A stretch of DNA of 31,606 nucleotides from NCBI GenBank assembly GCA_035528375.1, contig DATKYS010000098.1, positions 1 through 31,606 of the forward strand, given 5' to 3'. Below the pieces are notes generated by a model, which saw nothing but the letters and a program-made list of their open reading frames with translations, did no database searches and was not told the DNA's origin. The stretch comes from a bacterium (GTDB lineage Bacteria > RBG-13-66-14). Below are positions 3,524-28,413 of the stretch, in pieces; position 1 is the first letter of the stretch; the number at the start of each line of letters is the position of its first letter. The position numbers and the translations under genes were made by a program.

Positions 3524-4153
3524 ATGCGTTACACCCTGATTCTTCTGTTCATCCTCTCCGCCGTCGCTTCCGCCGAAGAGGTGACTATCCAGCCGGGCCT
3601 GGCCAAGGGCAAGGACGCCTTCTGCTGGGAGCAGCAGCCGAACACCAACTTCGGCGTCTCGTACTACCTCAAGATGTACACCTCGGATTCACCGAACCTG
3701 GGCTTCGCGAGCTTCATCGAGTTCATTGACATCAGTTACTACCGCGGTCGGTACGCCAATTCGGCGACGCTCTACCTCTATACCCAGGCCGTGCTCGGCA
3801 CGGGCGGGGAGGTGGAGTTCGGCGCCTCGGACGCCTTCTGGGATAAGGACCTCATAACCTGGAACAACATGCCCGACATCCACCCCCAGACCCTGGACTC
3901 CGCCGCCTACCCGACCACGGTCGGGGAATGGTGGGCCGTGGACGTCACGGACATCGTGCGGGGCTGGCTGGACAACACGCTGGCCAACCACGGTTTCAAG
4001 CTCTACGACGACGGGACCGGGAGCGTCGGCGCCACCTTCTACGCCAGCGAGTACATGGTGGACGAGACGTTGCGGCCCAAGCTGGTGATGGAGCTTTCCG
4101 AGGAGGGCGTTGAGGCGACATCTTTCGGTTGCATCAAGGCCCGGTACCGTTAA
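3524..4153 (+). CDS. Secreted DNRLRE-domain protein with C-terminal WG-K tag
   Basis: Exported protein of 209 residues, function unknown. It has a clear signal peptide (residues 1-17, cleavage after AVASA). The remainder resembles the DNRLRE / CBM96-like beta-sandwich found in secreted and cell-surface proteins of many bacteria: an early KGKDAFCWEQQPNTNFG, a central AFWDKDLITWNNMP and later VDVTDIVRGWLDN. The family is thought to bind carbohydrate or to be structural; no catalytic residues are visible. After the domain the protein ends in VEATSFGCIKARYR, a tail shared at the very C-terminus with the otherwise unrelated secreted protein at 27877-28413. It is a single gene with its own promoter and a palindromic terminator downstream. 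Confidence 0.75.
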   Translation: MRYTLILLFILSAVASAEEVTIQPGLAKGKDAFCWEQQPNTNFGVSYYLKMYTSDSPNLGFASFIEFIDISYYRGRYANSATLYLYTQAVLGTGGEVEFGASDAFWDKDLITWNNMPDIHPQTLDSAAYPTTVGEWWAVDVTDIVRGWLDNTLANHGFKLYDDGTGSVGATFYASEYMVDETLRPKLVMELSEEGVEATSFGCIKARYR

Positions 4154-14273: not shown

Positions 14274-14328
14274 GGCCTTGGACACACACGAACGTGTTTG
14301 ACTCGCATACGGATTCGGGAGGGTGAAA

Positions 14329-16137
14329 ATGAAACGGGCCGTGCCGCTTTTTCTCATGCTGATCGTGCCGGTCCTGGCGAACCCGGACGGCATCCCGATC
14401 ACCCGCCTCGCCGAGGGCGCGCCGCCGCTGGAAACGCGCGATGAGTACATGGCCCGGCGCACACCCTATGGCGAGCCCGATTTCGTCACCGTCCACCAGA
14501 GCCCGACCGGCCCCGGCGACGACCTCTACGTCCTGGTCAACGAGGACCTGTACCCCAAAATCACCGCGGGCCTCGACACCTGGGTCGCCGACCTGGAGGC
14601 GGAGGGCTATACCGTGACCGTGGCCACCTCGGGCGTCATCTCGCCGGAGGACCTCCGAGCCGAGTTGCAGGCCCGATGGGCCCTGGGAATGGACGGCGCC
14701 GTTCTCATCGGCGACTTCGACTCGGCCTGGTTCGAGGGCGTCTTCTGGACCGACATCGGCTACGAGAGCTTCCCCTGCGACCTCTTCCTGATGGACCTTG
14801 ACGGCCACTGGTCCGAAAAAGGCTCCCAGGATGGCGGATTCAACGGTATCTACGACATCCACACCGACGGCTCGGGCGACATGGAGCCCGACATCTACTT
14901 CGGCCGCGTGCCCGCCCACAACCTCAACCTCTGCGGCGACGAGGCCACGCTGGTGAACGCCTGGTTCGAGCGCGACCACGATTACCGCACCGGGGACTGG
15001 CCGCTGGACGACAACTCGATGACCTACGTGGATTACGACTGGGCGCCCTGGGGCGAAGCCTGGAGCGCCTACGTGGGCTACGTTTACCCGGACAACGAGA
15101 CCAACGTCTGGCCCGACGTCACCGCCCAGGGTTACATGGACCGGCTCAACGACGTCACCTACGAGCACATCCTCATGTGTTGTCACTCCTCGTGGTCGTT
15201 CCACTCCTTCCACACCGGCGGGAGCGTGACCAACGCCTACGTCAACTACACCAACCACCAGTGGGCGGTTCACAACCTCTTCGCTTGCTCGAACGCCCGC
15301 TACACCGAAGACAACAACATGGGCGGCGTCTACACTCTGGACCCTGACTCGAAGGGACTCATCTCCATCGGCTCGACCAAGACCGGCTCCATGCTCGAAT
15401 TCCAGGTGTTCTACGACGCCGTGCGGGACGGCATGACCTGGGGTGAAGCCTTCACCCACTGGATGGGCGAGGTCGCCGAGGGCGAGTACGGCGGCTGGAC
15501 GCAGCAGGACGCCCGCGGCTGGTTCTACGGCATGACCCTCATCGGCGATCCCACCCTCAAGCCCGACGTCATATCGCCCGTCGAGGTCGTCAGCTTCCGG
15601 GCTGATCCCATTGACGGCGGAGCCCTGGTCAGTTGGGCGGTGTCCAGGCCCGAGGAGGCCGCCGGCTACAATCTCTACCGTCTCTCCGGGGATGGGGAGA
15701 GCCGGGAAAGGCTCAACGAGAACCTCTTCTCCGGCGACGGACCCTGGCGTTATCTCGACACCGGGGCCGACACCGGCCGCGTGGCCTATCTCCTCGAGGT
15801 GGTCGAACCCGGCGGGGGCAGCCGGTTCTACGGTCCGGCCGAGTGCGAGATCTACGGCCGCGACATCGCCCACACCCGCCTGTTGGGCACCTACCCCAAC
15901 CCGGCCGGGGGGCTGGCCGCGGTGAGCTTCGAGCTGGCCGCCGCCGACGCGGGTGACGTGAGCGTCGTCGTTTACGACACAGCCGGGCGCCGGGTGATGA
16001 CCGTCCACTCCGGCACCCTCCCCGCCGGACGCCACGTCCTGGGATTCGATGCCTCGAGCCTGGCCGGCGGCGTGTACCTCCTCAAGCTCGAGACCGCCTC
16101 CGCGGTCCGGACGACCCGTCTGGTCGTGGTGCGGTAG
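14329..16137 (+). CDS. Secreted gingipain-like (C25) cysteine peptidase with C-terminal sorting domain
   Basis: Exported protease of 602 residues. A signal peptide (1-17, ending VPVLA) precedes a caspase-fold catalytic region with MCCHSSW (His 286) and, 34 residues on, NLFACSNARYTEDNNMGG (Cys 320), matching the His/Cys dyad order of the gingipain family. Earlier, DGAVLIGDFDSAWF and PDIYFGRVPAHN are family-typical. A fibronectin-III-like module (about 420-510, with GALVSWAVSR and AAGYNLYRL) follows. The last ~80 residues, LGTYPNPAGG...VVVYDTAGRRVM...SLAGGVYLLKLET, form a Por-secretion/FlgD-like C-terminal domain. The ATG at 14329 has GGGAGGG 6-7 bases upstream; a GTG two codons earlier is the alternative. 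Substrates are unknown; export to the cell surface is inferred from the sorting domain. Confidence 0.85.
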   Translation: MKRAVPLFLMLIVPVLANPDGIPITRLAEGAPPLETRDEYMARRTPYGEPDFVTVHQSPTGPGDDLYVLVNEDLYPKITAGLDTWVADLEAEGYTVTVATSGVISPEDLRAELQARWALGMDGAVLIGDFDSAWFEGVFWTDIGYESFPCDLFLMDLDGHWSEKGSQDGGFNGIYDIHTDGSGDMEPDIYFGRVPAHNLNLCGDEATLVNAWFERDHDYRTGDWPLDDNSMTYVDYDWAPWGEAWSAYVGYVYPDNETNVWPDVTAQGYMDRLNDVTYEHILMCCHSSWSFHSFHTGGSVTNAYVNYTNHQWAVHNLFACSNARYTEDNNMGGVYTLDPDSKGLISIGSTKTGSMLEFQVFYDAVRDGMTWGEAFTHWMGEVAEGEYGGWTQQDARGWFYGMTLIGDPTLKPDVISPVEVVSFRADPIDGGALVSWAVSRPEEAAGYNLYRLSGDGESRERLNENLFSGDGPWRYLDTGADTGRVAYLLEVVEPGGGSRFYGPAECEIYGRDIAHTRLLGTYPNPAGGLAAVSFELAAADAGDVSVVVYDTAGRRVMTVHSGTLPAGRHVLGFDASSLAGGVYLLKLETASAVRTTRLVVVR

Positions 16138-21930: not shown

Positions 21931-22863
21931 CTACCAGGCGGGGAGGCTGTCGGAGGCGGTGTTGTCGGTGAGCTGCTTCTGCTCGGCGCCGTCGGCCTTC
22001 ATGGTGCAGATTTCCCAGTCGTCGGCCACCAGGCTCGCGTAGACGATCCGTTCTCCGTCCGCGCTCCAGCAGGGGTAACGCTCCTGGCCGTAGCCTTCGC
22101 CGCCGGTGAGGCGGACCGGTTTCGAGCCGTCCAGGGCGATGGTGTAGATGTCGTAGGTGCCCGCCTCGTCGCCGGAGAAGGCTATTAGCTTGCCGTCCGG
22201 GGACCAGGCCGGGTCGTTGCAGTTGAACGATGCGCCGCCGTAAAGCCGCCGCACGTCGGATCCGTCGGGTCCGGCCAGGTAGATGCCGAAGCGGCCGCCG
22301 CGCTCGCTGGCGAAGGCGACGAGCTTCCCGTCCGGGCTCCACGAGGAGCCCTCGTCTATGCCCGGTGAGTCGGTGAGCTGGGCGGCGTTTCCGCCGTCGG
22401 CGTCCATCACCCACAGCTCCCAGTCGCCGGTACGCTCGGAGTCGAACGAGATGCGGCCGTCCGGGGTGAAGACGGGGCGGTCCTCGTCCTCGGGGGTGAA
22501 GGTCAGCCGAACCGGTTCACCGCCCGCCGAGTCCATCACGTACACCTCGAGGTTCCCCTCCAGGTGGCATGAGACGAAGACCAGCCTCTTCCCGTCAGGG
22601 GAGAGGGCCGGGTACGGGTCCCAGTCGGGTTTCAGGTCCCGGGTCAGCTGTTTGAGCTCACCCCCCGCGGTGTTGATGACGAAGAGGTTGTTCCCCACGC
22701 CGTCCCGATTGGAGGCGAAGTAGATGTGATCGCTCTGCCGGGGCAGGCATCCGGAGATTAGAAGAACGGTCAGGGCGACGAGTGCGATGGGAGCGTTTTG
22801 CTGGGGCATAACTCGGTTCGCCATGGGCGTAGCTCGCTTCGCTCGGTTCGCTTCGGTTCGCAT
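21931..22863 (-). CDS. TolB-like PD40 beta-propeller lipoprotein
   Basis: Exported propeller protein, up to 310 residues, resembling the WD40-like (PD40) domain of TolB. The hydrophobic signal ends LLISGC. Repeats with SPDGK, DGRISF or ADGERI turns each contain an IYFASNRDG/LVAFASERGG/LIAFSGDEAG strand and an I(Y/C)T(I/M).LDG/ADG link, about six blades. It stops at DSLPAW, just before another blade's SPDG turn would be expected, so the last blade may be closed by the N-terminal strand. Three in-frame ATGs are possible (22863, 22824, 22809). The first 22 residues of the longest version are largely encoded by a dispersed TTCGC-rich repeat, so the true start may be one of the later ones. No tol/pal genes are adjacent, so this is not a clear TolB. 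Confidence 0.8.
   Translation of the reverse strand: MRTEANRAKRATPMANRVMPQQNAPIALVALTVLLISGCLPRQSDHIYFASNRDGVGNNLFVINTAGGELKQLTRDLKPDWDPYPALSPDGKRLVFVSCHLEGNLEVYVMDSAGGEPVRLTFTPEDEDRPVFTPDGRISFDSERTGDWELWVMDADGGNAAQLTDSPGIDEGSSWSPDGKLVAFASERGGRFGIYLAGPDGSDVRRLYGGASFNCNDPAWSPDGKLIAFSGDEAGTYDIYTIALDGSKPVRLTGGEGYGQERYPCWSADGERIVYASLVADDWEICTMKADGAEQKQLTDNTASDSLPAW
22801..22847. repeat. TTCGC-rich dispersed repeat, copy B
   Basis: Begins TGGGGCATAACTCGGTTCG, continues through CCATGGGCGTAGCTCGC and runs into further TTCGCTCGG-type units to about 22861. It matches copy A at 12431-12475. It covers the start region of the propeller lipoprotein gene. Confidence 0.55.
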
Positions 22864-27876: not shown

Positions 27877-28413
27877 ATGAGGAAGACTGTAGTCGTCATG
27901 CTAATCGCCGCCGCCTTCACCGCTGCCGAGACCCTTTGGGAAAATCCCTGGGGCGCAGATCAGTGGCAAACTTGGCGGACAAGTAGCGGTGATTATTATT
28001 GCCAGGATGATTTCGTGCTCAACAGTAACGCAACCATCGAATCTTTCGCTTGTTGGGGTATGATAGAGGTTGATATGGTCGAACCCTTTTACTTAGCTCT
28101 ATTCACCGACAACTACGGTCGTCCCGGCGCACGAATCTGGGAAACCACTATCTACGAATACGAACTTACACCCGCCGGAGATAATTATAGGATAGACATG
28201 CCTCTTCCCGAGCCGCTGATAATTGATACCGGGATATATTGGGTCGAGTTCTATTACACGGGGTTTCTATGGTGGTGGTGCGCGGGTGCCGACGGCAACA
28301 TGTACCAGGATGGAGTAGACACCGGTTACGACGCCTTCTTCGGTGTCTACGGCAATTACACCCCCGCCGTGGAAGAGACCTCCTGGGGCGCGGTTAAAGC
28401 CTTGAACCGTTGA
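27877..28413 (+). CDS. Secreted protein of unknown function with C-terminal WG-K tag
   Basis: Exported protein of 178 residues with a signal peptide (about 1-17, ending AFTAA). The mature part is aromatic-rich and looks like a single beta-sandwich: YYCQDDFVLNSNATIESFACWG, FYLALFTDNYGRPGARIWET, IDTGIYWVEFYY. DDF...W.I, D..G.PG and G.YWVE are features I associate with widespread uncharacterised secreted domains; no family is named. It ends VEETSWGAVKALNR, sharing eight of fourteen positions with the C-terminus of the protein at 3524-4153. The ATG at 27877 has AGAGGTGG 7 bases upstream; a GTG at 27859 would start inside that site. The middle of the gene is noticeably AT-richer than its neighbours. 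Confidence 0.7.
   Translation: MRKTVVVMLIAAAFTAAETLWENPWGADQWQTWRTSSGDYYCQDDFVLNSNATIESFACWGMIEVDMVEPFYLALFTDNYGRPGARIWETTIYEYELTPAGDNYRIDMPLPEPLIIDTGIYWVEFYYTGFLWWWCAGADGNMYQDGVDTGYDAFFGVYGNYTPAVEETSWGAVKALNR

Follow-up and report, generated by a model that had tools for sequence, protein, structure and literature searches.

C-terminal sorting tags define how bacterial surfaces are built, and through each of the tags recognized earlier (LPXTG, PEP-CTERM, and the T9SS domain) a new enzyme or a new machine for secretion came to light. In the GlyGly-CTERM system, a transmembrane helix is required after the Gly-Gly motif, and in type IX secretion (T9SS) the C-termini of the cargo are received by barrels of the PorV type. 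In PEP-CTERM and LPXTG proteins, the motif is followed by a transmembrane helix and then by a basic cluster (PMC1569441). As for the T9SS domain, its last residues are essential, a conserved Lys lies in its last strand, and C-terminal extensions are tolerated; the targeting signal of one T9SS cargo lies within its last 22 residues (PMC11285876).

The DNA analyzed here (the window) is a stretch of 31,606 nucleotides from a bacterial genome whose phylum appears to be a Coatesbacteria lineage. The features concerned are the following:

3524..4153, + strand: exported DNRLRE/CBM96-domain protein of 209 aa with signal peptide MRYTLILLFILSAVASA and the tail (ORF; CBM96 E = 1.1e-17, DNRLRE E = 1.4e-26)
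4109..4150, + strand: C-terminal tail, copy 1, VEATSFGCIKARYR, immediately 5' of the stop codon at 4151-4153 (ORF end, DNA pattern, and BLASTP)
14323..16137, + strand: exported protein carrying a canonical C-terminal domain of type IX secretion, given as context and outside the tail system (PF18962 Por_Secre_tail, E = 6.2e-7, residues 524-602)
27877..28413, + strand: exported protein of no known family, 178 aa, ATG at 27877, with signal peptide MRKTVVVMLIAAAFTAA and the tail (ORF)
28369..28410, + strand: C-terminal tail, copy 2, VEETSWGAVKALNR, immediately 5' of the stop codon at 28411-28413 (ORF end, DNA pattern, and BLASTP)

A first-pass annotation of the window had proposed that these two secreted proteins, otherwise dissimilar, end in a common stretch of 14 residues closed exactly by the stop codon. 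BLASTP confirmed the stretch at its exact positions, with 8 of 14 residues identical (E = 0.044), and found no similarity between the two carriers outside it, so that they are not full-length homologues; the ends at the stop codons were verified for both ORFs. As a control for chance, eight or more identities were seen in 24 of 160,461 pairs of C-terminal 14-mers from non-tail proteins, some of these 24 probably being homologues. The protein at 27877-28413 had no match in Pfam or NCBIfam, and a distant relative in a Krumholzibacteriia MAG (locus L164; 25% identity, E = 5e-6) has the same kind of tail. No relatives of the DNRLRE protein were found among viral contigs in the scan. With the T9SS protein at 14323-16137, both kinds of C-terminus stand side by side in one window. 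By eye, the N-terminal part of this protein resembles a gingipain (C25)-type peptidase (CCHSSWSFH, LFACSNARY), and no C25 match was obtained in Pfam at 0.001. On the minus strand, 21931-22863 encodes a PD40 (TolB-like) propeller lipoprotein with no tail; related propellers carry the tail in genome G003 (L078), and a 66%-identical paralogue in L031 ends just before it.

Degenerate DNA patterns applied to the whole 2.63 Mb genome gave seven matches for the Arg-ending form of the tail (none for the reversed control) and 34 for the main form in the genus of the window, WGxIKAx[FY]-stop, which lacks the final Arg (none for the control). The final Arg, present in both window copies, was discarded as a requirement because it misses most copies, the main form of the genus ending in Phe or Tyr. 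When the surrounding regions were read, at least 52 distinct tail proteins were counted in this genome. In a logo of 52 of these tails, the Gly, the Lys, an Ile/Val/Leu, and a Ser/Thr before the aromatic residue were found in all 52; the aromatic is Trp in 46 and Phe in 6, Val is at -5 in 48, and Ala follows in 45. The core [ST][WF]Gx[IVL]K[AST] occurred 54 times at four or fewer residues from a stop in 263 kb of the genome, versus a single time elsewhere in all six frames of the same DNA, itself five residues from a stop. Overall, the tail has the consensus V-x-x-x-[ST]-[WFL]-G-x-[IV]-K-[AS]-x-x-(R)-stop, in which the Gly and the Lys are invariant, an aromatic or aliphatic residue precedes the Gly, and Ile or Val stands two residues after it; TSWGxIKAxF and TSFGxVKALFR are typical forms of about 10 residues. 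Two to four residues follow the Lys-Ala in the 123 tail proteins of the wider set. Eight tandem tail paralogues are found on contig C100 of the window's genome, and tandem arrays with diverged bodies and conserved tails were observed at L088 and G000:C20, L104 and G000:C100, and L305.

Genes were called by simple rules, and export by a simple hydrophobicity rule instead of SignalP. By this rule, 42 of the 52 tail proteins of the window's genome are exported, versus 21 of 183 other proteins (Fisher p = 2.5e-21), and in other genomes the proportions are 110 of 134 and 67 of 392, the sample being biased toward tail neighbourhoods. A signal-peptide-like start was also seen in 70 of 73 tail proteins from four of 19 further genomes. 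Most tail proteins have an ordinary signal peptide, and a lipobox is present in few. The bodies of the 123 tail proteins fell into 46 BLAST clusters, the largest of which (45 proteins) is chained via common beta-sandwich domains. Both the enrichment at the C-termini of signal-peptide proteins and the diversity of upstream domains, which the first-pass annotation had named as checks, were borne out. The recognisable carrier domains include Big_5, CBM96/DNRLRE, GDSL lipase, DUF2341, choice-of-anchor J (named for its occurrence with varied C-terminal anchors), CHRD, beta-helix, LTD, and others; most carriers belong to no family in Pfam or NCBIfam. Among the proteins that were checked individually, the tail region was covered by no model of Pfam or NCBIfam. 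A match to the NCBIfam model 'invert_tail' in one protein was internal (residues 114-134), below the cut-off, and not the tail. AlphaFold2 models built from two to three sequences were too poor for use (mean pLDDT 40 and 47), and a helix over the tail in one of them was set aside. Two-domain DNRLRE proteins of about 450 aa (L195, L196, L208, and L210), conserved phylum-wide, have a different, acidic/aromatic end and no tail.

Strict patterns matched 13 of the 14 genomes of the phylum, with reversed controls essentially at zero. In the fourteenth (G001), the variants TSIGTVKALYR and SSVGAVKALFK were read directly in its DNRLRE proteins (L194 and L207), and the tail is thus present in all 14, 13 by pattern and one by reading. 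A blind scan of 84,980 species, one genome per species, with an exact pattern that under-counts variants, gave 64 matches in 61 stretches. Every one of the 64 is in frame at a stop codon; an ORF of at least 90 aa is closed by 60 of them, and 59 belong to proteins with a signal-peptide-like start. The records are mostly titled Krumholzibacteriia, Coatesbacteria, Fermentibacteraceae, or Aegiribacteria, and the few titled Zixiibacteriota, Verrucomicrobia, Gammaproteobacteria, Chromatiales, Gemmatimonas, or Fibrobacter may be mislabelled MAGs. Tail genes were observed on MAG contigs titled Gammaproteobacteria, Verrucomicrobia, Gemmatimonas, Chromatiales, and Fibrobacter (L133, L144, L150, L157, and L167), and the genomes of L144, L150, and L167, when searched, held 18-24 tail copies each, with SprA in two of the three. 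No record titled Bacteroidetes was among the exact-pattern matches from the 84,980 species, which should include many Bacteroidetes; T9SS alone, therefore, does not imply the tail. With a broader pattern, 2-45 copies were found in each of 19 genomes of other groups, labelled for the most part as Krumholzibacteria or Fermentibacteria, and none in the control for any of them.

The sequence of the tail tracks lineage more than protein family. Variable tail positions are shared at 43.6% between proteins with unrelated bodies within a lineage, a value that undetected paralogy could inflate, at 38.9% between related bodies across lineages, and at 32.5% between unrelated bodies across lineages; in a permutation of the lineage effect, none of 300 label shuffles reached the observed difference. 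As an example of this drift, Pro is at -3 in 100% of the tails of lineage g8 and 93% of those of g7; in no other lineage is it a leading residue. One shared receptor per lineage would be the simple explanation.

Taken broadly, the tail is very probably a C-terminal sorting tag. We also consider it probable, with somewhat less confidence, that it is a short linear sorting signal on Sec-exported proteins that is read by a receptor, with a PorV-like T9SS shuttle as the leading candidate. In such a mechanism, the C-terminus would be bound after Sec export by one shared periplasmic or outer-membrane receptor, which would then pass the protein to the cell surface or hold it there, the tail standing in, on secreted proteins that are mostly small, for the folded sorting domain of T9SS. 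If the receptor were a PorV-like shuttle working with the SprA translocon, the tail would make up a second class of signal for T9SS cargo, a minimal one; this version we put forward tentatively and rate as less likely than not. The earlier reading of the tail as a sorting, processing, or anchoring signal is supported by its enrichment, its export, and its independence of domain; the sorting part rests on this pattern, and the co-occurring processing enzyme that would have added support was not found beside the tail genes in the neighbour analysis.

In that analysis, no gene for a dedicated receptor or enzyme recurred beside tail genes, and the only widely recurring neighbour family was that of the T9SS-domain proteins. 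Proteins with the T9SS domain (TIGR04183) number 23-67 per genome in all 14 genomes of the phylum, with 48 matches in that of the window. SprA (as a SprA_N match) was found in 11 of these 14, including the window's own, and in 17 of the 19 other genomes, and the PorV family has 6-14 genes per genome in 22 of 22 genomes. The PorV/PorQ family was observed to be strongly expanded (G000-G027, with 14 matches in G000), several members lying in frames of 650-720 aa. Because T9SS is common to the whole group, its co-occurrence with the tail proves little. PorV and tail genes share some contigs, at a frequency not clearly above chance in a rough count on one single-contig genome. The tail and the T9SS domain were never seen on the same protein (0 of 123 tail proteins; NCBIfam E <= 0.1, Pfam 0.001), and among the fetched loci there were no homologous bodies in which one had been swapped for the other. 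Given the published data on T9SS C-termini and the fixed Lys near the end of the tail, it is reasonable to suppose that another PorV paralogue reads a minimal signal. In the window's genus, most tails have dropped the final Arg, which the T9SS domains encoded in the same genomes have kept; this argues against one shared binding pocket.

This loss is also among the points that favor a docking or retention peptide working apart from T9SS, which would dock by non-covalent binding on an abundant scaffold of the outer membrane or surface, in the manner of a minimal dockerin, and so keep small exported proteins on the cell. The short fixed core followed by two to four residues, the lineage drift expected for the ligand of one receptor, and the absence of the tail from T9SS-rich named groups in the exact-pattern scan point in the same direction. 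However, no scaffold was found and no dedicated neighbour recurs beside the tail genes, and we regard docking as possible but rather doubtful. Cleavage by a dedicated protease or transpeptidase that would also join the freed C-terminus to a molecule of the envelope, in the way of sortase, exosortase, or PorU, is unlikely. It would fit fixed residues near the C-termini of many exported proteins and the presence of choice-of-anchor J, DNRLRE, and CHRD domains, which are typical of anchored proteins, but none of the 123 tail proteins has a transmembrane stretch in its last 50 residues, unlike LPXTG and PEP-CTERM proteins, and no enzyme gene adjoins the tail genes.

That the tail is the element closing a beta-sandwich fold common to its carriers, or that these are all distant homologues, is very improbable and has been largely refuted. 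The cluster of 45 of the 123 proteins, chained via Big_5, DNRLRE, and similar beta-sandwich domains, could suggest such a fold, but the same tail is found on a GDSL lipase, beta-helices, and CHRD, LTD, and DUF2341 proteins, and it follows lineage more than family. In addition, tail-less relatives end just before the point at which the tail would begin (L031 and L195), and there are two-domain DNRLRE lipoproteins with no tail, so that the tail is not needed for the fold. Finally, a repeated DNA element or chance, as two copies in one window could suggest, is refuted by the codons at matching tail residues, whose third positions are identical at 0.60 versus 0.96 for positions 1 and 2, so that synonymous codons vary freely and the tail is a protein motif, as well as by the near-zero reversed-pattern controls and by a position always in frame and at the stop.

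Our preferred reading, a linear signal recognized by a receptor, may amount to a new sorting system, although we rate this a little below an even chance: a linear peptide of ten residues at the C-terminus, with neither a membrane helix nor a folded domain, which would direct dozens of exported proteins per cell to a destination via a putative receptor in Coatesbacteria, Krumholzibacteriota, and Fermentibacterota. A search of the open literature, incomplete in its coverage and missing most subscription papers, turned up no description of the motif or of T9SS in these phyla. In each genome, the tag is borne by dozens of proteins, the majority lacking a family name, in phyla that are little or not cultivated. 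With a profile of the tail, a large number of unknown exported proteins could be annotated in one step, and it would become directly testable which further proteins are carried by the type IX machinery or its outer-membrane shuttles.

Among the known C-terminal systems, the beta-signal of outer-membrane beta-barrels resembles the tail in its Gly and C-terminal aromatic residue. Its spacing, however, differs by one from that of the tail, the tails of most lineages end in Arg, and the recognisable carriers are soluble domains (lipase and CBM-like modules) instead of barrels, most carriers having no family. The tags of GlyGly-CTERM/rhombosortase are likewise short, C-terminal, and on exported proteins, but their transmembrane helix is absent from the tail proteins. 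PEP-CTERM/exosortase and LPXTG/sortase resemble the tail in that a short conserved motif marks the C-termini of dozens of exported proteins in each genome, with many unrelated proteins among them. They differ from the tail in that, over their last 50 residues, none of the 123 tail proteins has a hydrophobic 15-mer above 1.6 and no enzyme gene adjoins, and the motif of the tail is [ST][WFL]GxIK instead of LPXTG. With no transmembrane-like stretch in the 123 carriers, the architectures of LPXTG, PEP-CTERM, and GlyGly-CTERM are excluded, and the first-pass annotation was right to assign the tail neither to these nor to the T9SS domain. The latter (TIGR04183/PF18962 Por_Secre_tail) shares with the tail its C-terminal position, Sec export, diverse bodies, and presence in the same genomes. 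It is about 70 residues long, in contrast to about 12-15 for the tail, which has no YPNP...GxY...R pattern and whose final Arg is dispensable in the genus of the window.
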